Source: Lobulomyces angularis (taxonomy: Eukaryota > Chytridiomycota > Chytridiomycetes > Lobulomycetales > Lobulomycetaceae). From it: a stretch of DNA of 55,343 nucleotides. This document shows, in pieces, positions 1,421 through 55,343 of this stretch (the first letter of the stretch is position 1; the number at the start of each line of letters is the position of its first letter). Made by a program: the position numbers and the translations under genes. The notes under the pieces were generated by a model that saw only the letters and a program-made list of their open reading frames with translations, searched no databases and was not told the origin of the DNA. Location: NCBI GenBank assembly GCA_027604685.1, contig JADHYX010000025.1, positions 48,754-104,096 on the forward strand, given 5' to 3'.

Positions 1421-3478
1421 ATGAAAAAACTTAATTTTCTTTTATCATCAATTCCATTAAGATCTACTCGAATTAATGTTAGTTAATTTTTATTTTTTTA
1501 TCTTTTTTTTTAATTTTTTTTTCTTATTTTAAAAATAACCTTTAATAAGGTTAAACAAAGTAAGATAGGAAAGTTTTTTCCAGTTGGACCTCAGAATTAC
1601 AATGTGAATGCAAGATATTTTTCCTCTCAAACCATAAACGTTTCAGTTGAATCCAATTTAACAAATTTTAATCAAAACCATCCCACCTCTAATAAACATC
1701 AAATTGAAAAGGAATTTAGTAATCTGATGCTTGCTGGATTTGCTAAAAAGAGGGAGACGATAAATTTTTTTGTAGAAAATGAACGAAAACTGAGTTATGA
1801 TTTGATACTAGAATTTTTTCAATATTTGATAAGATTTAATTTGGAAAAAGAGTTAAAGCAATGTTTCGGGATGATAAATAACCCAACGATAGTGATGTAT
1901 ACCAAGATTTTGTCTCTCCTTTCAAAAAAAAAAGACGTTGAATGGTTCATGTACTATTTTAAAAAATTAAAATTAGAAAAAAATTTTAAACCTGATGTGT
2001 ATACTTACAATATAGTGTTGAATTTTTTTGGACATTTGAGGGACGAGACTAGAGTAAAATATTACTACAATGAAATGCAAAATTTAAAAATTAGTCCAAA
2101 TATCTACACCTTTAACAACTTGATAAATTTTTGCTCGGAAATCCAAAATTTTAGTAAAGTCAAGTACTTTTTTAACAAGATTTTGGAAAATGAATTAACA
2201 CCAAACATTATCACTATGAATAGCATGCTAAAAGCTGTAGCCAGGGAAAAGGATTTGGTTAGAGTTGAATATTATTTTGATAAAATTAAAAAATTTGGAT
2301 TAAACCCCGATAAGATTTCATATACCATTGTACTGAAAGCATATTTGGATAAAGGTCTTTTGGATAAAGTGCACAAATATTTAAATTTGATGAAAGAAGA
2401 AGGCTCACTGGATACAGTTGTTTATAACATTTTGATGCAAAAAAAACTAGATTCTGGAGATGCGGAAAGAGTTGAAATTTTTTTTAAAGAATTACAGTCA
2501 AAAAATTTAGAACCAGACGTAATTACATACACTACGTTGATGAGCAGTTTAGTTGATCTTGGTAGATCAGAGGAAGTTGAATCGTACTATAAAGAAATGG
2601 TTTCTAAAAATATAGAACCCAATTTGCAGGCTTACACCATTTTAATAAAAAGCTTTTTTATGTTGGAAAATAGTGAAAAAGTGGAGCATTATTTCAAAGA
2701 GTTTATATCCAAGGGATTACAGGCAGACGCTGTTATATACAGTTACCTAGTGTCCACCTTTGCACAGAGCAACAATGAATTTAAGCTCAGTTATTACTTT
2801 AATGAGATGATTAATAAAAATTTGAAACCTGATATGAAAACTCTGAACACCTATGTTTTAAATGGAACACAACATGATTATAATAAGATTTTTGAAAAAA
2901 TTAAGAAATTAGACTTTTTAAATTTTCAGTTAGACATTACAACTTGGAGTGGAATTATGAATGCGTACAATCATTCGCGCGATAGCGATACAGCAATCAG
3001 AATATATGAAACATTAACTGGCACTTTAGGAAAAAGATCACCAGCAATATTACCAATAAAAATTGAGAGAATACCTTACGATCTTAAGACTGCTGGTTTA
3101 TTTGCTATTGGCCTGGATGTTTGTAAACACGGGGGATTGAGAGACAAATACCACGACATTTGGCTGGATGCGCTAAACTCAAGAATACCATTGAACGCGA
3201 ATGTGTTAACTTCTTACATTGAATGCATGTGTAGATTTGACTTGTTTGAAAAGGCATTATTTTTATTAAGAAATTTGATGAGCTCCAAATGTAAAGATCA
3301 AAGAATCCCAAAACCAGATGAAAAAACTATATCCACATTTTTAAAAATTTTGGATAAAAGTAGAAAATTTAGATTAAAAAAAATGTTCAAGTTAGTTTTA
3401 CAAGGAAATTTTAAAATGATACCAAAAAAAGTTGAATATAAAAAAAGAGAGAAGAAAATAAAAGAAGAGAAAATTTAA
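1421..3478 (+). CDS. Mitochondrial pentatricopeptide-repeat (PPR) protein
   Basis: Exon 1 (1421-1477) encodes a basic, hydrophobic leader (MKKLNFLLSSIPLRSTRIN) typical of a mitochondrial presequence. A GT..AG intron (1478-1549) joins it in phase 0 to one long exon ending at TAA 3478, giving about 660 aa. From about residue 115 to 440 it shows roughly ten 35-residue PPR motifs in tandem with the usual pattern, for example DVYTYNIVLNFFG, NIYTFNNLINFCS, DKISYTIVLKAYL and DVITYTTLMSSLV. The C-terminal third is more diverged but still helical-repeat-like (LNANVLTSYIECMCRFDLFE), and the tail is lysine-rich. PPR proteins bind organellar RNA and act in its processing, stability or translation; the exact target cannot be read. 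The start rests on the leader peptide, because the long exon by itself has no good ATG at its 5' end. Confidence 0.88.
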
Positions 3479-12666: not shown

Positions 12667-14649
12667 AAAAGTGTATTTATTAAGTAAATTAAAAAAAAAA
12701 AAAAAATGAATTGTTTTAAATAGAGTAATATATTTTATTGTAATATATGTAAAATTTAACTATTTTTTTTAGTAAAAAATTCAAATTTTTTTAAAGGAAG
12801 GAAGGTTACATTGAAAAAACAATTTCATGTTTTTTTTTTAAAATGCTGAAATTTAAGGTTTTTGTTTTTTTTTCTTTCAATTAAAAGAATAAAAATAATT
12901 ATCTACAATTATAATATGGATTTATGGTGGATGAAGACTCTATTTTCTGTCTCTTACTTTAAATTCGTTTTTTTAAAAGTTTAAGTGAATAATTTAAAAA
13001 AGCATTATTAAAAAAATACTATTTTTAAAAATATTATTCAAAAAACATTATTCTATTAGAATTTTTAAAAATAAATTTATTCTCATTCATTAGATTTTTA
13101 AATTAATTAATTTATATGAAAAAATTTTTTTTTTTAATTATACATAAAAAAGAACACACCAAAAAAAAAAATACTAAAATTTAACTATATTTTTTAAATA
13201 AAATAATAATCAAAGGTTGCCAAGTTGCCAACTATTCTTTTTTTATTTTATTTTATCTGCTGTTGCTGAAAAAACAACTTAACCAAGGACGCCAAGTTGA
13301 AAAAAAAAAAAGTGTAAAAGGTAATTAATAATAAAAATTTTTGTAGGAATAGAATGTTTTTTATTATTATAATCAAAATTGAATAGAATAGATAGAAGCA
13401 CACCTTCTATATGCTCGAGTGTTACAAAAAGCTTAAAAATGTAGAAAATAGGGATTTTTTTTATTTTTAGGAGTGACTTTTTGTCTGTAATTAAACTGTA
13501 ATTTTTTTATTGTTGTTACTTAAAAATGAAAAATTAAAAAAAAATTTCGGAAAGAAAGTAGATTGGTGATATAAAAGAAGCGTAGCCATGAAGAGAGATA
13601 GGCCATGTCATTAGAGCAAGTTAAGGATAGTTATAATACTAATCCTGAACAAGAACACTATGGGTTAAAAACATTTGATAAAGCTTGTAGCTATTGTGTC
13701 ATTCATAGGACTAGAATTCTCATCAATGATATTTTTTGTTACAAGTCAAACAAACTCTATCCATAAATATTATACTTTTGGTTTTATTGCAACAGTTCAA
13801 ACATTAACCGCACTTGGATTTTGTTGGGAGGCATAATAGAAAAACAGGAGATAAATTTCATCAACAAAAACAGGAACCAAGTTGAAGGGGTTGTCTGCGG
13901 GAGTAGTCAGTAGGAATTTTATATTGTTATTAAAGAAGGAAATATTTACAAATATAAAGTTGTTTATAAAGAAGTTATAGGAAGAATATGAAATTATATA
14001 GGAAATTATAGGAAAAAATTTATCATCACCTCACCCTTTACCATCAAATTGTATTATTTTTCATGTAGGAAAAATAACTGAACACTATTTCTGTAGTATT
14101 ACTATATTATTTCTATATTATATCTATAGTATCACTATAGTATTACTATGGTGAATAGACTATAATACTGTTATTAATTAATAGTCCTGTTGTCATAAAA
14201 CTGCTGATCCTACTAACAATTATAGTATACTTATCATGGAATTTGTAGTCCTACTATCATAAGTTGTTATAAATAATAACTTAACATATCATAAATTTCA
14301 TGTAAGATTGATTCTATTTTTTTGTTACTTAAAAAAGACATTTTGCTGCGTTCAGTTTTGTTTTTTTTTTATTTTTTTTTTTAGAATGTAACAGCCTTGT
14401 TTGAAAAAATATTTAGAAAATTTGCTAGTTTTTGCCTTGAACTCCCTTTTTACAAAAAAAAATAAAAAAAAATTCTTATGAAACAACAATTAAAAAACAG
14501 AATCTAGGGCGACTTAAAAAAAATAATTTTCTTTATTTTATAATATTTATTTTTTAAAAAAAAAAAAAGTATAAATAATCTATCCTACTTCCCTTTTTTT
14601 TTAAATAAAATATAAAAATTTAAATATATATAAAATAAAAATAATAATA
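12667..14649. other. Intergenic, AT-rich, with a small membrane-protein relic
   Basis: About 2 kb without an intact gene. Poly-A/T and ATTATT runs dominate 12700-13350. A decayed two-TM reading frame is annotated separately at 13605-13836. From 14085 to 14230 the sequence is a degenerate repeat of CTATAGTATTACTA-like units. The last 100 bp form the T/A-rich leader of the next metalloprotease gene. Confidence 0.5.
13605..13836 (+). pseudogene. Relic of a small two-TM membrane protein (one frameshift)
   Basis: ATG 13605 opens MSLEQVKDSYNTNPEQEH and reads to TFDK. The same frame then becomes unnatural and ends at a TAA near 13767, but shifting by one base at about 13682 gives LVAIVSFIGLEFSSMIFFV and FGFIATVQTLTALGFCW, two convincing hydrophobic segments ending in TAA at 13836. 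No intron fits the shift. It is most simply a frameshifted small membrane-protein gene of unknown family; a sequencing error is the alternative. Confidence 0.45.
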
Positions 14650-15483
14650 ATGAAATTAGCAATCTTATCCGCTCTTGTATTAGCTGCTTCCTCTGTAAAA
14701 ATTGATAAAAAATGGTGTGCTACTCGTGAAATGAGTGCTGAAAAAGATGCTGTTGTTTCTCAAAATTTTGGTGTTGTAAATACTTTCTTGAGCAGACCTC
14801 AACTCACAAAAATCAAGGTTCACTTTCACATCATCACTTCTGAAGAAGATGGTCAAGTTGTTGGTGATATCACTACTGATCAAATTCATCGTCAAGTTAA
14901 ACGTTTAAATGATGCTTACTTGAACTACGGTTTCAAATTTAGCACCGAAAGCACCACTAGAATTAAGAACAGCTCTTGGTACAATGTTGTTCCTGAAAGT
15001 CAAGAAGAAATTGATATGAAAACCTCCCTCAGAAAAGGTTCCGCTGAAGAATTAAACTTTTACGTTGCAAACATTGGTGATGGTTTATTAGGTTGGGCTA
15101 CTTTCCCATCTGATTACCAAGAAGCTCCAAAAATGGATGGTGTTGTCTGTTTACAAGGTTCTTTACCAGGAGGTAATGCTGAAAACTACAACTTGGGTGA
15201 TACTGCTACCCACGAAGTTGGTCATTGGTTAGGTCTTTACCACACTTTCCAAGGTGGATGCAGCAACGAAAGAGGTGACTATGTCAGTGACACTCCTGCT
15301 GAAGCTTCTCCTGCTTTCGAATGTCCTGTCGGTAGAAACACCTGCACTGGTGAAAAATTCCCTGGAGATGATCCAATTACAAACTACATGGACTACACTT
15401 ATGACACCTGTATGAACTCTTTCACTCCTGGACAAGGTGAAAGAATGAAGAAACTATGGGGTTCTTTCAGAGCTGGAAAATAA
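14650..15483 (+). CDS. Secreted M43 (pappalysin/MEP1-like) zinc metalloprotease, intronless copy
   Basis: Single exon, 277 aa. The N-terminus MKLAILSALVLAASSV is a signal peptide, followed by a short pro-region. The catalytic domain contains [11 protein letters not shown] (zinc ligands and catalytic Glu), the cysteine pairs around GGC and CPVGRNTC, and the Met-turn region [17 protein letters not shown]. It aligns along its whole length with the gene at 3748-4730 but has none of that gene's three introns. Its third codon positions carry more C (AAC, ACC, CTC, TTC) than neighbouring genes, a sign of high expression or of a different history. The role is probably extracellular proteolysis, as in fungal MEP1. 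A T-rich leader lies upstream and the ATG follows ATAATAATA. Confidence 0.95.
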   Translation: MKLAILSALVLAASSVKIDKKWCATREMSAEKDAVVSQNFGVVNTFLSRPQLTKIKVHFHIITSEEDGQVVGDITTDQIHRQVKRLNDAYLNYGFKFSTESTTRIKNSSWYNVVPESQEEIDMKTSLRKGSAEELNFYVANIGDGLLGWATFPSDYQEAPKMDGVVCLQGSLPGGNAENYNLGDTATHEVGHWLGLYHTFQGGCSNERGDYVSDTPAEASPAFECPVGRNTCTGEKFPGDDPITNYMDYTYDTCMNSFTPGQGERMKKLWGSFRAGK

Positions 15484-39138: not shown

Positions 39139-40996
39139 ATGACAAAACAGATGCATGCGGTCACCATTGCCGAGGTTCCTTTGCGAACTAACAAAGCGGT
39201 CTTTGGTGTCAGATTTCAGAATTGGATGGTTAACGAAGGTAATAATTTTGAATTGATTTAATTTATTAATCTGAATATTTTCTTATGTTTGAAGGTCCAA
39301 AAAGAATCTTTCTTACTTTATGGATTTTAGCAAATATTGGTTATTTCGCTTATAGTTGGTGGGCTTTATGGACCGACAAAAATTTAACAACATTTCGCTC
39401 TATTTTAGGTTGGGCTTTACCTACAGCAAGGGTACCATTTTTTCTAATTTAGTTTTCTAAAGAAAAATTTTTATTTTTATTTATTTTATTTTTTTGTTTT
39501 ATTTTTTTTACTCAAATTTTTTTTTTTCCTATTTAGGGAGCTGCAAATTTATTAAACTTCAACTGTGCAGCAATTTTATTTACAGTTTGTAGAAATTTAA
39601 TTTCAATTTTAAGAACCACTTTTTTGAATAAATTGGTACCCTTCGATAAAAATATTACATTTCACATAGTCATAGCGTGGTGTATCGCGTTTTGGTCTTA
39701 TGTTCACTGCGTTGCTCACTATTTCAATTATTTATATGTTCAACAGGCTTTAACCGATGACAACGGAGTAATGCGCACCGCAGTTTCATTAGCATTACTT
39801 AGTGGCCCAGGACTTACTGGACAAGTAATTACCATTGCTTTTTTTTTAATGATCACCAGTGCTGTGGAGGGTGTTAGAAGAAAATATTTTGAGATTTTTT
39901 GGTTTACTCACCATCTGTTTATCGTTTTTTTCGGTGCAACTTTGATTCACGGGAGTTTTTGCTTTATCAAAGGTGATTCTGGCGATCCTTGCAGAGGCGG
40001 GGCTACTTTTTGGAAATGGTGGGTTCCTAGTGCATTTATATTTATCGTTGAAAGAATTTTGAGAGAAGTAAAAGGCAGAAGAAAAACTTATATATCAAAA
40101 GTAGTTCAGCATCCAAGTAAAGTAGTGGAAGTGCAAATCACCAAACCATCTTGCAAAACCGAAGCCGGTCAATATATTTTTTTGTGCTGTCCTGAAATTG
40201 CTGCATATGAATGGCATCCCTTCACTTTAACCTCATCTCCACATGAGCCCTTCATTAGTGTACATATTAGGGTTGTGGGAGATTGGACAACGAAATTTGC
40301 TGAGAGACTCGGGTGCAGGTTTGGCAAGGATGATAAACCGAGACATAATACGTTACCATACGTTATGGTTGATGGACCATATGGATCAGCTTCAGAGGAT
40401 GTTTTTGATTATGAAGTCGCTATTTTAGTTGGCGCTGGTATTGGTGTAACACCATTTGCTTCTATATTAAAAACAATTTGGTATCGTTTATCTCAACCTA
40501 ACGGGCTAAAACTATTAAAAAAGGTTTACTTTATCTGGTCTTGTCGAGAACAATCCGTAAACAAAATTTTTTTTTTTTTTTTTTAAAATTTTTATTTTTT
40601 TTTACAAAACAGGCATTTGAATGGTTTCAAGATTTGCTGAAAACATTAGAGGAGGATATACGACAAAATGGGCCAAAGTTTCAAAATTTTTTATCTATCA
40701 ACAGTTTTTTAACAGCCAAGATGTCTTCTGATAACGCCCACAATATTTATTTACAGGAAGCGGACGAGGAGAATGACTTGGATGCAATAACAGGTCTTCG
40801 AGCCAGAACCTTTTTTGGTAGACCCAATTTTGACGAAATTTTTAAGAAAGTTAGAAGTACCCACAGAGGAACTGATGTTGGAGTGTTTTTTTGTGGTCCG
40901 AAAGTGGTTAGTGGGAAATTGCATATAGCTTGTAATACCTGGACTGAAGCTGAACCTGGAGGCACAAGATTTTTTTATGGAAAGGAAAATTTTTAA
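39139..40996 (+). CDS. nox: NADPH oxidase (NOX, gp91phox family)
   Basis: Four exons (39139-39238, 39295-39431, 39537-40556, 40613-40996) give 546 aa, the usual size for fungal NoxA/B or human NOX2. The ferric-reductase-like membrane part is clear: PTARGAANLLNFNCA, CRNLISILR, LVPFDKNITFHIVIAW with its haem His, CVAHYFNY, and FWFTHHLFIVFFGATLIHG with the second haem His pair. The FAD site is HPFTLTSSPHEPFISVHIR and the NADPH sites are DGPYGSASEDVFDYE, LVGAGIGVTPFASIL and FFCGP. The C-terminus is KENF, very close to the NOX2 C-terminal KENF/KE-F pattern. No N-terminal EF-hand is present. The enzyme transfers electrons from NADPH across the membrane to make superoxide, and in fungi it governs development and hyphal or cell differentiation. 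Confidence 0.97.
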
Positions 40997-48638: not shown

Positions 48639-51094
48639 ATGGAAGCTTCCTGCGTTGGCGAAAGCTCTGTTCAGAAACTTGGCAGCTTGATTAACAAGGA
48701 TAAATCTCTCTACTCTGACAACATACGAAACACCCAGTCCAGAATATCTGATGCAAGTAGGAAAAACATACTACAGTTCGACTCCAACGCAAACAATTTT
48801 ATTAACCAAAAGCAAATAATCAACAGTAATAATACTCCTAATTTTTTAAATCAAAATTTGATAAATCAAAATTCATTAAATGAAAAGTTGATACCTAAAA
48901 ATGTTATTCACATCAATGATGAATGGTCTCATGAATTTATGAAAGGCAAGCATTTACTAAATGATAATGCTCGTTTTGATCTAACCTCAGGAAACAAGCA
49001 GATGATGGAGAGCGTATTTCAGAGCCATTTTAGTAACATTTTTTTGATTAAATTTTTAATTGAAAAATATTCTTCAATATAAGCTACTCCCGCTAATTCG
49101 AACTGGAACACTGAATTTCAAACTTTCCAAGCCCATCACCAGAATCTTGTAGTACTGGGAGATGCTGAAATGGAAAAAGCCTTTGAAAGAGCACAAGGTA
49201 ATGTTATATTTAATTTATTTTCTAACAAGTATTTTGACTCAAAAGGTCACTCTTGGGAGCAAGAATTCATAACCGAAAATTCATGGGAGAAGGAATTCGA
49301 AAAGCAGCAGCTCGCCGAGGCTGAAGATTGGGCAGATGAGTACCAGCAAACCTTTCATATTGGTTAGTTTTTAACTTATATTTAAATTAAAACTTCTGTT
49401 AGATTCTGCATCGGACAAGGACGCGCTACACCGTACAGCCACCCATTTACATAATATCATGCAAACTAGGTTTTTATACACTTTTTCTTAAATTTATAAA
49501 TTATAAACATTTTAGTTCCAATCCGAAGTTTCAAAATTCAAATTTTAGTCTATTTTTAAATAAAATCAAAGAAAGACAAGTGGAAATTGAAGGAAATAAT
49601 ATAGTTGATGTCGACTCAGCAACGTATAAAAAATTTATTATGAAACTTTTACTAAATGTGAATTAGGAAAATTACGAATGATGAAAATTTTACTTCTGAA
49701 GCATTAGAGTTACCTCAAAACTTGGCCAATAAATGGGCGCAGAATTTTAACGGAACTCAAGTTAAGTCAGGCGAGTGGGAGGAGGATTTTTTAATGGAGC
49801 AGCATGCTTCCTCCTCTAGTAACTGGGCAACAGAATACCATGAAAGCGGGCCTGAATATGATTGGAATAGTAGAAATGACAATATTAGCTGGGTGGATGA
49901 ATTTAACGGGATCAGTTTAAATGCAAAGGATGAGACTTTGACGTGGAATGAAGAATTTCAGAATTCGGTTACTAGAAAAGGGCCATCGAATTTATACCCG
50001 TTCACTAAAAATAATCTCTTTTTAAATCAAAGTATTGACTCTTTGCAGCAGTTGTCTACAAAATCCCACTTGTCGGAATCAATTCTATCCTTGGAAGCCT
50101 TGGTGCAAATGGAACCCAATAATGCACAATGCTGGTATCAATTAGGAATGAAACAGCAAGAAAATGAGAATGATCATTTAGCTGTTGTTTCTTTGTTAAA
50201 TGCGCTAGAACTAAACCCAAAACTTTTGGATGGTATTTTTATTTATTTTTACTCAACTTAATCAAAAATATGATAGCCTGGATAGCATTAGCGGTATCTT
50301 ACGCAAATGAAAATTCTAATGAAGGAGTGTTGGAGTCTTTAACTAAATGGATAGAAAATAATGATTTATACAAGAACAAAGGAAACTTAAAAAATAGACA
50401 ATATGGTAGAGAGGGGCATGAATTTTTAACCAAGAAATTTTTGGCCCTAGCCAGAGAGCGCCCATTGGAGGTAGATGCTGATGTGCAGGTTTGTATACTG
50501 AAATTTATATGATTAACAGTTGTTAAGGTTGCTTTGGGCATACTGTTTAATGTTTCAAATGAATATCAAAAAGCAATTGACTGTTTTGAAAGTGCTTTAT
50601 CAAAGCGACCTCAAGTATATTTTAAAGGATAAAAATTTTTTTTATTTCCTTTAATAGGATTACTTGCTTTGGAATAAATTGGGAGCAACTTTAGCAAATT
50701 CGAAAAATTCAGTGAGAAGTTTGGACGCTTATTTTAATGCACTTTCAATTAATCCAGAATTTATTAGAGCACGATACAATTTAGCTATTAGTTGTATCAG
50801 TTTGCAGCAATATACAGAAGCGGCAGAACATTTACTAGGTGGATTACAGATTCAAGAGCAAATCAATGGTGCTGATAATATAGGAAAAATTAACGGAAAT
50901 GAAGACATTTCTTCTTTGCGGTCTGATGGTTGTTGGAAATTACTTAAGTTGATCTGTGATGGTTATTGTATAAAACACATTATATTTAAACCTTTTTTTA
51001 ATTGTTTTGTACTATTCTAGTGCAACGACCAGAATTAACTGAAGCATGTAATCAACGAAACTTAAATTTTTTTCGAGATCATTTTGAATTTTGA
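48639..51094 (+). CDS. PEX5: Peroxin-5, PTS1 import receptor
   Basis: ATG 48639 begins [19 protein letters not shown], with the conserved N-terminal Cys (residue 5) that is mono-ubiquitinated for receptor recycling. About ten WxxxF/Y motifs follow (WSHEF, WNTEF, WEQEF, WEKEF, WADEY, WAQNF, WEEDF, WATEY, WVDEF, WNEEF), which bind PEX14/PEX13. The C-terminal half is a TPR domain ([104 protein letters not shown]) that binds C-terminal SKL-type signals. It ends [20 protein letters not shown] before TGA 51094, the family's typical terminus. About nine small introns are present. It carries peroxisomal matrix proteins from cytosol to the import pore. Confidence 0.97.
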
Positions 51095-53423: not shown

Positions 53424-54489
53424 TTATTTTTCTATAGTTTTGTAATTACATCTAGTATCATAAGGGCTACGGCTCGAATTTTGACCCTGATCACTACAAC
53501 TTACCAAGTCAATGCTTTGAGGTACCTGGGAAGCCTGCGAATCTAATTCTCTCCCAGACAATGAATTGGACCTGATTGCTTTAGTTATCATATTTAGAAT
53601 GAAAAATTCGCACTGAATAATAAAAAAGATTGATACATCAGAATTGTACAATTCAAGTTGTTTCATACCTTTAATTTTATTGAATACAGCAAAACCTTGA
53701 ACATAATTTGATATTCGTACATGTCAGCATATTCTATAGAAACCTAAAGGATATTTCAGTATATTAAGCGAAAAGTGGGTTAGCATCATATTCATTACCA
53801 TTATTATGTCTAAAACGATAACTATAGTATTTATGTAAACTGTATGAAAAACAAGATTTTTCATCTTTCTAGAATCTTTCATATTTAAAGTTCCTCTACA
53901 ATAGTAAAGATATAGAAAACTCAAAATCAATTCTTGAATAAGAAAAGAAGTCATTTGAATTTTTTCTATTGTTGCATATCCAATAGTCCAAAATGGAGTT
54001 CCAATAAGGTTTGCGCCGAATGTAAAAACCTGTTCAAAAAAAAAAGTTAAATTTTTAAAGTTTTAAATGAATACCGTAGTTGGCCAATGGGAGAAAACTA
54101 CGTTGTAACAAATAAAATAAAAAATGGCTTTTCTATACTTTTCTGGTATGTTCATTAGATGAAGACGAGAATACATAACCAAAGACAATCCAGTAACCAT
54201 ACCGTACCTAAAAAAAGGTGAACAACACGAAATAGATTTAAAAATACCATCCAACAGTTAAAATAACTAATGCAGGAACTTTAGACTCTAATATACTGAA
54301 AAACAAAAGGATAAACCCAAATGCGAATAGAAAGGTACAAACACTCGTAACAATTAGTGATTTAAAATAAAATGACTTAAAATTGGTGAAAGTAGTAAAA
54401 ACGATTATCATAATTTCTAAGGAGTTGTACATTGCAATGCATCCTGCACCAATTTGAAAGTATGCAACTCCGCGAGGTATTACTGTCAT
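53424..54489 (-). CDS. Seven-TM membrane protein of a fungal family (SRLHL motif), unknown function
   Basis: Minus-strand gene from ATG 54487-54489 (MTVIPRGVAYFQIG) to TAA 53424, four exons. Segments: IGAGCIAMYNSLEIMIIVFT, LIVTSVCTFLFAFGFILLFF, VPALVILTVGWYGMVTGLSL joined across a 42-nt intron into VMYSRLHLM, FYFICYNVVFSHWPTTVFTF, SFLIQELILSFLYLYY, VYINTIVIVLDIIMVMN and a last stretch IFFIIQCEFFILNMI. The GW(V/Y)GMVTG..LV.YSRLHL block is familiar from an unnamed family of seven-TM proteins in early fungi. A hydrophilic serine-rich tail follows. An acceptor-like TTGCAG directly precedes the ATG, so an extra 5' exon is possible. A receptor-like role is plausible but unproven. It lies just 3' of, and co-oriented with, the Fanzor gene. 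Confidence 0.7.
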
Positions 54490-54746
54490 TCTGCAAAAAA
54501 CAAATAAAGACCGGTTAAACTTATATGGTTAAATTCTCCAATCACTAAACTGAACCAATCAAATTCAAATTCATTACTTCATATTTATATTATTTATTTT
54601 TCTGTAACAGTTGTAACACCACATATAAATATATTACATTTTTTGGATAGTGCTTGGGCATTATCTTTTTGAACATCAAATATTCAAAAAAATAATACAG
54701 CGAACACCAATTAAAATAAAATAGCGAAAACTATTTAGGAAAAATT
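54490..54746 (-). other. 3' flank of the Fanzor ORF (candidate omega-RNA / element end)
   Basis: 257 bp between the Fanzor stop codon (54747) and the start of the seven-TM gene. In described Fanzor and TnpB systems the guide RNA scaffold (omega-RNA) comes from the 3' end of the element, downstream of or overlapping the ORF end. The region is AT-rich with short mixed stretches (54485-54560). No terminal inverted repeat can be tested, because the other end lies outside the window. Confidence 0.3.
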
Positions 54747-55343
54747 TTATCTACTTAAATAATTTGGTCTAACTCTATGCAATAAAGTTGCTTCTACCAC
54801 ATCCTTTAAGTTTAAAGTAGCAACATCATCCCTGTTCCAAAGTCTTTCAACTAAATTTCCATTCACCATTTGCTTACACATTTCGTTTTTGCAACGTAGC
54901 AATCCATGAACTTTAATTAGTTTATCTTTTTTAGTGGGATTTGGATGTTGTCTTTCTTTAAATGTTTCTAAAGATCTACTTTTACATCCAGGGCAAATTG
55001 ACGAAGTCAAAAATTCATTAACCAAACATACTTGATATCCTGCCTTTTTAAACATGTCTCTAAACCCTTTTCCTTTTGTTGGAACTTGATATTTCATAGC
55101 AGTTCTTGACCAATCTCCAATTAACACCGTTGTATTTTCATTATCTCCAAACTTTTCTTTAAATTTTTTAATGAATTTAGTTTCTGATTTTTGCGAGTTT
55201 ATGAAAGCATTTAATTTCAATTTTCTAAATATTGTGTTCTTATAATTTAATTCCAGTTGAGTAAATCGATACAAGTAATCTTTTAAATAAATACGAAATG
55301 CAATAGGATCAAGTAACTTTCTAGATGGAATAGGTATATTTTG
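54747..55343 (-). CDS. Fanzor (eukaryotic TnpB-like RNA-guided nuclease), C-terminal part, truncated by window edge
   Basis: The minus-strand frame is open from the right edge (55343) to TAA 54747-54749, 198 codons; the N-terminal part lies beyond the window. The order is that of Fanzor RuvC regions. It begins with a basic helical segment, then the RuvC-II strand VLIGDWSRTAMKYQVPTKGK, where TnpB has Glu but this has Gly. GFRDMFKKAGYQVCLVNEFL follows, containing the Glu thought to replace it. The zinc finger has C-x2-C (CPGC) and C-x4-C (CKNEMC) knuckles, and the RuvC-III block is LWNRDDVATLNLKDVV with the catalytic Asp. Fanzors are nuclear RNA-guided DNA endonucleases descended from IS605/IS607-type TnpB and spread by transposons and large viruses. 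No stop interrupts the visible part, so it may be intact. Confidence 0.9.
   Translation of the reverse strand, partial: QNIPIPSRKLLDPIAFRIYLKDYLYRFTQLELNYKNTIFRKLKLNAFINSQKSETKFIKKFKEKFGDNENTTVLIGDWSRTAMKYQVPTKGKGFRDMFKKAGYQVCLVNEFLTSSICPGCKSRSLETFKERQHPNPTKKDKLIKVHGLLRCKNEMCKQMVNGNLVERLWNRDDVATLNLKDVVEATLLHRVRPNYLSR

Follow-up and report, generated by a model that had tools for sequence, protein, structure and literature searches.

An open reading frame breaks off at the right-hand edge of the DNA analysed here, and the locus raises the question of which gene this is the end of, what larger unit carries it and whether the copy is intact or decayed. The window, by which we mean the whole stretch of 55,343 nucleotides, corresponds to positions 48754–104096 of contig C25, which is 104096 bases long, so that the window and the contig end at the same base. 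A sequence-only reading had proposed that the uninterrupted C-terminal 198 codons of a Fanzor RNA-guided nuclease, with a zinc finger and a RuvC-III motif in place, lie here in an early fungus. The frame was confirmed: 198 sense codons and a stop codon occupy the minus strand of the Lobulomyces angularis window from 55343 to 54747, reaching the window edge without an upstream limit. The CPGC, CKNEMC and NRDDVATLN motifs were all located within it, and L. angularis is an early-diverging fungus (Chytridiomycota, Lobulomycetales). The parts of the gene are as follows.

54747..55343, minus strand: C-terminal 198 codons and stop codon of the Fanzor1 gene, as identified by the frame and PDB matches; still open where the contig stops, at 55343
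55014..55016, minus strand: codon of RuvC-II Glu110, aligned with SpuFz1 E541 (chain residue 935)
54984..54995, minus strand: first half of the zinc finger, CPGC, residues 117–120; Cys117 and Cys120 near-invariant in the A2 alignment
54876..54893, minus strand: second half of the zinc finger, CKNEMC, residues 151–156; Cys151 invariant and Cys156 near-invariant in the A2 alignment
54828..54830, minus strand: codon of RuvC-III Asp172 in NRDDVATLN (NRDD being residues 170–173, 54836–54825), aligned with SpuFz1 D606

Compared with all PDB sequences, the translated frame matched PpFz1, the Fanzor1 of Parasitella parasitica, with E 5.8e-32 and SpuFz1 with E 2.4e-28, and every match with E < 1e-3 was a Fanzor1. 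The Guillardia theta Fanzor1 was a marginal match (E 0.004), and a swi6 entry (E 0.034) was taken as chance. A relative elsewhere in the genome, L015, which has an open frame of 332 amino acids across the RuvC region, matched SpuFz1 with E 5.8e-53 in the PDB search. Among profiles, the Cas12f1/TnpB zinc-finger domain of Pfam (PF07282) scored a sub-threshold 17.8 bits against a cut-off of 26.3, and an NCBIfam search of the window protein returned a single row, far under its cut-off. An AlphaFold2 model of the window protein, built with 14 sequences, had a mean pLDDT of 84, and all six of its Foldseek hits with E < 1e-3 were Fanzor1 chains; as their TM-scores to the query were low (0.42–0.45) and the rmsd high (7.5–9.3), the model backs the family but not the detail. 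Judged from these matches and the model, the gene piece is the C-terminus of a Fanzor1 nuclease, the last third of the gene, which upholds the proposal of a Fanzor and specifies it as type 1.

The four cysteines C117, C120, C151 and C156 make up a C4 zinc finger (TNB). According to the available text of PMC10432273, the metal ions of SpuFz1 are coordinated by E541 and D606 together with D383 and N385; our SpuFz1 residue numbers use a tag offset of 394 inferred from chain length. The contig ends at 55343, and the RuvC-I Asp and the N-terminus of the window gene therefore lie beyond the readable DNA; the description as uninterrupted is correct for the 198 codons before that point. In relatives of the window copy the RuvC-I Asp (SpuFz1 D383, with N385) is present in the motif IDPN, and on contig C6 the assembly breaks exactly at the codon for this Asp, 225 bp past the equivalent of the window edge. 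The REC part was found in another member of the family, L051, which matches SpuFz1 chain residues 413–656 with E 2.7e-14.

The sequence-only reading had itself named a bacterial TnpB gene on a contaminant contig as what would overturn it. That the frame is such a gene, or an IS607-type (Fanzor2) gene on a contaminant, is hardly credible: the weak, sub-cut-off PF07282 match would fit it, but the PDB matches below 1e-3 are Fanzor1 alone, for L015 as for the window protein, and speak against membership of TnpB or Fanzor2 for the latter. Moreover, among the matches to L015 listed with a species name the best are from the chytrids Lobulomyces and Clydaea, Clydaea being the best outside this genome; copies occur on 89 contigs, a group of them with an apparent spliceosomal intron; and the window also encodes WD40, PPR and NADPH-oxidase-like proteins. 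A scan for viral relatives with the window protein returned 14 stretches, none of which encodes a relative.

Returning to the Fanzor1 gene, its copies remain homologous from the contig edge past the stop codon as far as window position 54648, the outer end of the following feature.

54648..54682, plus strand: right terminal inverted repeat, TAGTGCTTGGGCATTATCTTTTTGAA..., with the TA target-site dinucleotide (54648–54649) first; inner end approximate

TAGTGCTTGGGCATTATCTTTTTGAA at 54648 on the plus strand has no second match in the window even when up to 3 mismatches are allowed (0 expected), and genome-wide the repeat pattern has 38 sites, compared with 0 for its reversed form used as a control. 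Five copies (L011, L013, L019, L025 and L041) have both ends present, at 2.0–2.4 kb and with inverted repeats each starting with TA, and a Fanzor was the only reading recognised inside them, as judged by eye. The window copy shows the TA at its right end and the right repeat only, since its left end lies beyond the contig. By the evidence of these ends, the window gene sits in a probably Fanzor-only, Tc1/mariner-like element resembling SPu-1. A shorter element of 1.3 kb with both repeats but only fragments of Fanzor (L070, C129:1815–3141) is apparently an internal-deletion derivative. The sequence-only reading missed this TA-flanked inverted-repeat transposon, the multi-copy family to which it belongs and the candidate guide RNA after the stop codon.

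Beyond the element lies a host gene.

54241..54528, minus strand: probable first exon of a neighbouring host gene for a DUF7703-like membrane protein (PF24802, 23.9 bits, E 3.5e-5, cut-off 27)

The possible start of this gene is near 54489, and as its first exon is thus about 160 bp from the element end, the Fanzor element would have inserted in the upstream region of the gene. Elsewhere in the window, all on the plus strand, are a pentatricopeptide-repeat protein (1514–3478, a 654-aa frame), an M43-type (pappalysin-like) metallopeptidase (14605–15483, a 292-aa frame; PF05572, E 2.7e-18) and a ferric reductase/NADPH-oxidase-like gene with apparently at least one intron (39537–40996). A WD40 protein is also encoded.

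A search of the genome (20.76 Mb, 533 contigs) with the window protein gave 150 scored matches from 235 candidates, which resolve to at least 102 places on the 89 contigs mentioned above; the searched set may lack some small contigs. Most of the copies examined are decayed. Among the 35 rows covering at least 150 of the 198 residues, a few of which represent one place in two frames, 31 contain stops; the stop-free rows are the window and those on C196, C216 and C175. An alignment was made of 34 copies, each with a DNA match over 420 or more of the 697 positions, shorter matches and duplicates being left out. In 30 of them there is a stop or a gap whose length is not divisible by three, the open copies being the window, L008, L015 and L017; gaps were scored against the window copy, which is gap-free by construction. 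These counts are what favours the view that the window copy is itself dead, its C-terminus open by chance and its upstream part broken or deleted as in most relatives. We put that possibility somewhat below even odds, because the frame of the window copy stays open throughout its 198 codons and third codon positions differ in excess from three relatives, pointing to recent selection. The position of the copy in the assembly bears on the same issue. Of the 38 repeat sites, 20 have a contig edge no more than 1 kb away, against 5% expected (the far edge position is lacking for 7 of the 38), indicating that the assembly breaks at Fanzor elements, and several contigs other than C25 start or end inside them. 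This suggests that near-identical, young copies exist within the family, and the window contig too breaks inside its element; yet the closest match to the last 200 bp of the window is only 90% identical (C119, over 168 bp), while the right end is 94% identical to those on C119 and C415.

The case for selection rests on codon positions. Averaged across the 34 copies, identity is 0.76, 0.81 and 0.64 at positions 1, 2 and 3, and the window copy differs from L021 at 7, 3 and 18 such positions (P 8e-4 against an even spread), from L010 at 19, 12 and 44 (P 7e-6) and from L025 at 23, 16 and 48 (P 3e-5). Two pairs involving the open copy L008 also show a strong position-3 excess, and 10 of 12 pairs of broken copies show none that is significant; the other two (P 0.007 and 0.003) both involve L011. 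In a tree built from 26 of the 34 copies and L021, 27 in all, we compared change on the terminal branches at positions 1+2 with that at position 3. The window has a ratio of 0.28; the three further open copies have 0.08, 0.15 and 0.24 and L021 has 0.13, compared with 0.48–5.3 in 20 of the 22 others. The remaining two are broken copies (L011, 0.27; L003, 0.40), and given these low ratios and the excess in the L011 pairs the codon-position test is not clean. We read the window lineage as having been under protein-level selection until recently, which does not imply present function.

The upstream part of the gene may also be interrupted by an intron. Group A copies (L010, L011, L013, L014, L018, L019 and L025) carry an insertion of a few tens of bases, bounded by GT and AG, after the RuvC-I motif DPNKRDLLYCLG or a decayed form of it, with TACTAA inside it in L010, and L041, L032 and L015 read straight through this point without an insertion. 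This is probably a spliceosomal intron, to judge by its sequence, and would represent gain or loss within a transposon gene; if it is real, the window gene is probably interrupted upstream of the edge too.

Between the stop codon and the element end lie 99 nt that we propose as a candidate scaffold for the guide RNA (omegaRNA) of the nuclease, on the basis of their predicted fold and of what is known of SpuFz1.

54648..54746, minus strand: candidate omegaRNA, two hairpins including the terminal repeat, from the predicted fold
54633..54647, minus strand: predicted 15-nt guide region in host DNA just past the element end, inferred from SpuFz1

These 99 nt fold at -26.5 kcal/mol (z -6.06), and none of 200 shuffles was as low. 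Six other copies have z-scores of -3.9 to -5.6 and both hairpins, the short one being imperfect in L015, and right ends of 88–120 nt fold at -19.3 to -31.6 kcal/mol. Pairing was counted in an alignment of 27 of 32 copies, the window included, after degraded right ends (L023, L039, L040, L042 and L043) had been dropped. With the window's own fold as the structure, a choice that favours that fold, 90.3% of cells pair, compared with 46–56% when the structure is slid and 89.4% in shuffles (7 of 500 shuffles reach the observed value). Covariation is modest, its score being matched by 5 of 500 shuffles, and pairs changed on both sides show no excess in these 27 copies (2, against a shuffle mean of 2.6). 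No match in the window reached the Rfam gathering threshold.

The hairpins could instead be a transposase-binding inverted repeat folded on itself rather than an RNA product. We consider this improbable, although the 3' arm of the long hairpin is the terminal repeat itself, RNAalifold found no consensus pairs on the gappy alignment of mostly decayed copies, and one left end (L041, sense) also gives the long hairpin, at -14.7 kcal/mol. Five left ends carrying the same repeat, however, fold over 99 nt at only -5.1 to -14.7 kcal/mol in sense and -10.1 to -18.0 kcal/mol in antisense (raw values, computed without shuffles), against the -19.3 to -31.6 kcal/mol of right ends, and the short hairpin beside the stop is not part of the repeat, its pairing persisting through changes from AU to CG or UG (columns 25–41). 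A repeat within the RNA also has parallels: the 3' repeat of SpuFz1 is within its sequenced RNA (PMC10432273), and the scaffold of an ascovirus Fanzor1 is predicted to include the repeats and target-site duplications (PMC10711439), just as the repeat lies inside the scaffold predicted here. The SpuFz1 RNA, sequenced, protein-bound and derived from the equivalent place, is 88–90 nt long with a scaffold of 75 nt, and runs 14–15 nt past the conserved region (available parts of PMC10432273).

Taken together, we assign a probability of about 0.87 to the joint claim that the window contains the 3' third of a Tc1/mariner-like element whose sole gene is Fanzor1, and that this element works with an omegaRNA in the following manner. 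The 99 nt after the stop would be transcribed as the scaffold, ending at the right end of the element, and the RNA would carry 14–15 nt of flanking host DNA as a guide. The complex of Fanzor and omegaRNA would then cut host DNA matching the guide beside a short TAM of which the TA target site is part; in this way an excised site or an empty allele might be cut and refilled from the copy that carries the element. Movement itself would need a Tc1/mariner transposase supplied in trans. Transposase matches in the genome are few and none has been shown to share the inverted repeat of the element: the DDE_3 profile (PF13358) has six, three of them over the cut-off, and a genome search with PF12784, an ill-chosen family, gave no match and is uninformative. 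On C128, a C-terminal piece matching PF13358 (25.7 bits, sub-cut-off) lies just downstream of a decayed, distant Fanzor1 on the same strand (L050:1316–2343). The repeat end of the family was not found at this locus, and we therefore do not claim its transposase as the autonomous partner.

To examine the insertion sites, we tallied 36 left ends by eye, excluding L016, L017, L018 and L048 (degraded or unclear) and right ends hit by the probes. In the B subfamily (L053, L055, L058, L064, L068, L071, L072 and L073, on C42, C86, C163, C184, C262, C286, C488 and C529), CA precedes the TA in seven of eight left ends, L053 being the exception; with a background frequency of 0.039–0.041 the chance of this is about 1e-9. 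All eight lie 75–522 bp from a contig edge, and seven are 95–100% identical to the probe (the eighth 83%), so that B looks like a young set and, on this evidence, is apparently the youngest subfamily. The other 28 left ends have CA three times against 1.1 expected, and in subfamilies A1 and C the TA is preceded by AT in 7 of 11 ends (background 0.126, P 1e-4), a pattern noticed post hoc whose P value precedes any correction for grouping.

It is possible to explain these differences by sister subfamilies whose Fanzors read different TAMs, only insertions by a matching TAM having been kept, but we regard this as rather unlikely. A preference of the transposase for its target, or two bases belonging to the element, would account for the CA in B without any selection by the nuclease, and to this we give a little less than an even chance: CA before the left repeat is reported, in the text available for PMC10432273, for SPu-1 and for ghost elements lacking Fanzor. 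On the other side, the same source gives CATA as the experimentally found TAM of SpuFz1, and other subfamilies in this genome have different flanks with nearly the same repeat. (In the accessible part of PMC11423790 one sentence swaps the order of the GtFz1 and SpuFz1 TAMs, and further on the GtFz1 TAM is stated as TTAA.) Among the B copies L053 alone has a long N-terminal frame, and it breaks off ahead of most of the TAM-contact residues. If the explanation by different TAMs were true, past shifts of TAM would be preserved in the insertion sites as in a fossil record, and the copies would provide a natural series in which to test the role of Fanzor for its transposon.

Few Fanzors have been studied in detail at the bench (SpuFz1, GtFz1, PpFz1 and two Fanzor2s), and RNAs have been sequenced for 20 loci from ten organisms, according to the portions of the literature available to us. 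We found no paper naming both Lobulomyces and Fanzor; most subscription papers were outside the search, and the supplements of large surveys may list the genome. L. angularis is a second chytrid with Fanzor-only elements, and its set is larger and in part young. It supplies homologues for biochemistry, together with a predicted TAM and RNA that are open to direct test, and its insertions are numerous enough to approach the question of why a transposon should retain a nuclease unable to mobilise it. As for the copy in the window, its usefulness is limited as long as the remainder has not been located.

The closest known system is SPu-1 with SpuFz1 in Spizellomyces punctatus (Bao and Jurka 2013; Saito 2023), which has in common with the element family described here a Fanzor1-only content, a length of about 2.1 kb and insertion at TA sites; the accessible text of PMC3627910 gives it a 33-bp TIR. 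The two also share inverted repeats of about 30–33 bp, an RNA-sized stretch between the stop codon and the right repeat, the RuvC residues, many copies alongside decayed ones, and CATA. They differ in number, with 42 loci reported for SPu-1 against at least 102 Fanzor places in L. angularis, and in sequence, SpuFz1 having 36–38% identity to the C-terminal window piece in the Foldseek alignment. SpuFz1 is a single ORF, in contrast to the apparent intron after RuvC-I in group A, and is followed by about 75–80 nt rather than 99 nt after the stop. PpFz1 (PDB 9cf0), the best match by E value, shares the C-terminal RuvC and zinc finger but has a greater length, an additional FRI domain and a 5'-ATN TAM, as described in the available part of PMC11423790. 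Also close are Fanzor1-like proteins of Clydaea vesicula, likewise of the Lobulomycetales, which in the parts that align are 39–78% identical to L015 (7 rows) and are annotated only as hypothetical or otherwise. The RuvC and zinc-finger plan is common to bacterial TnpB and the window protein, but there is no TnpB chain among the PDB matches and the window element is of the eukaryotic inverted-repeat type. The window gene is a well-preserved further member of the already known Fanzor1/SPu-1 kind.
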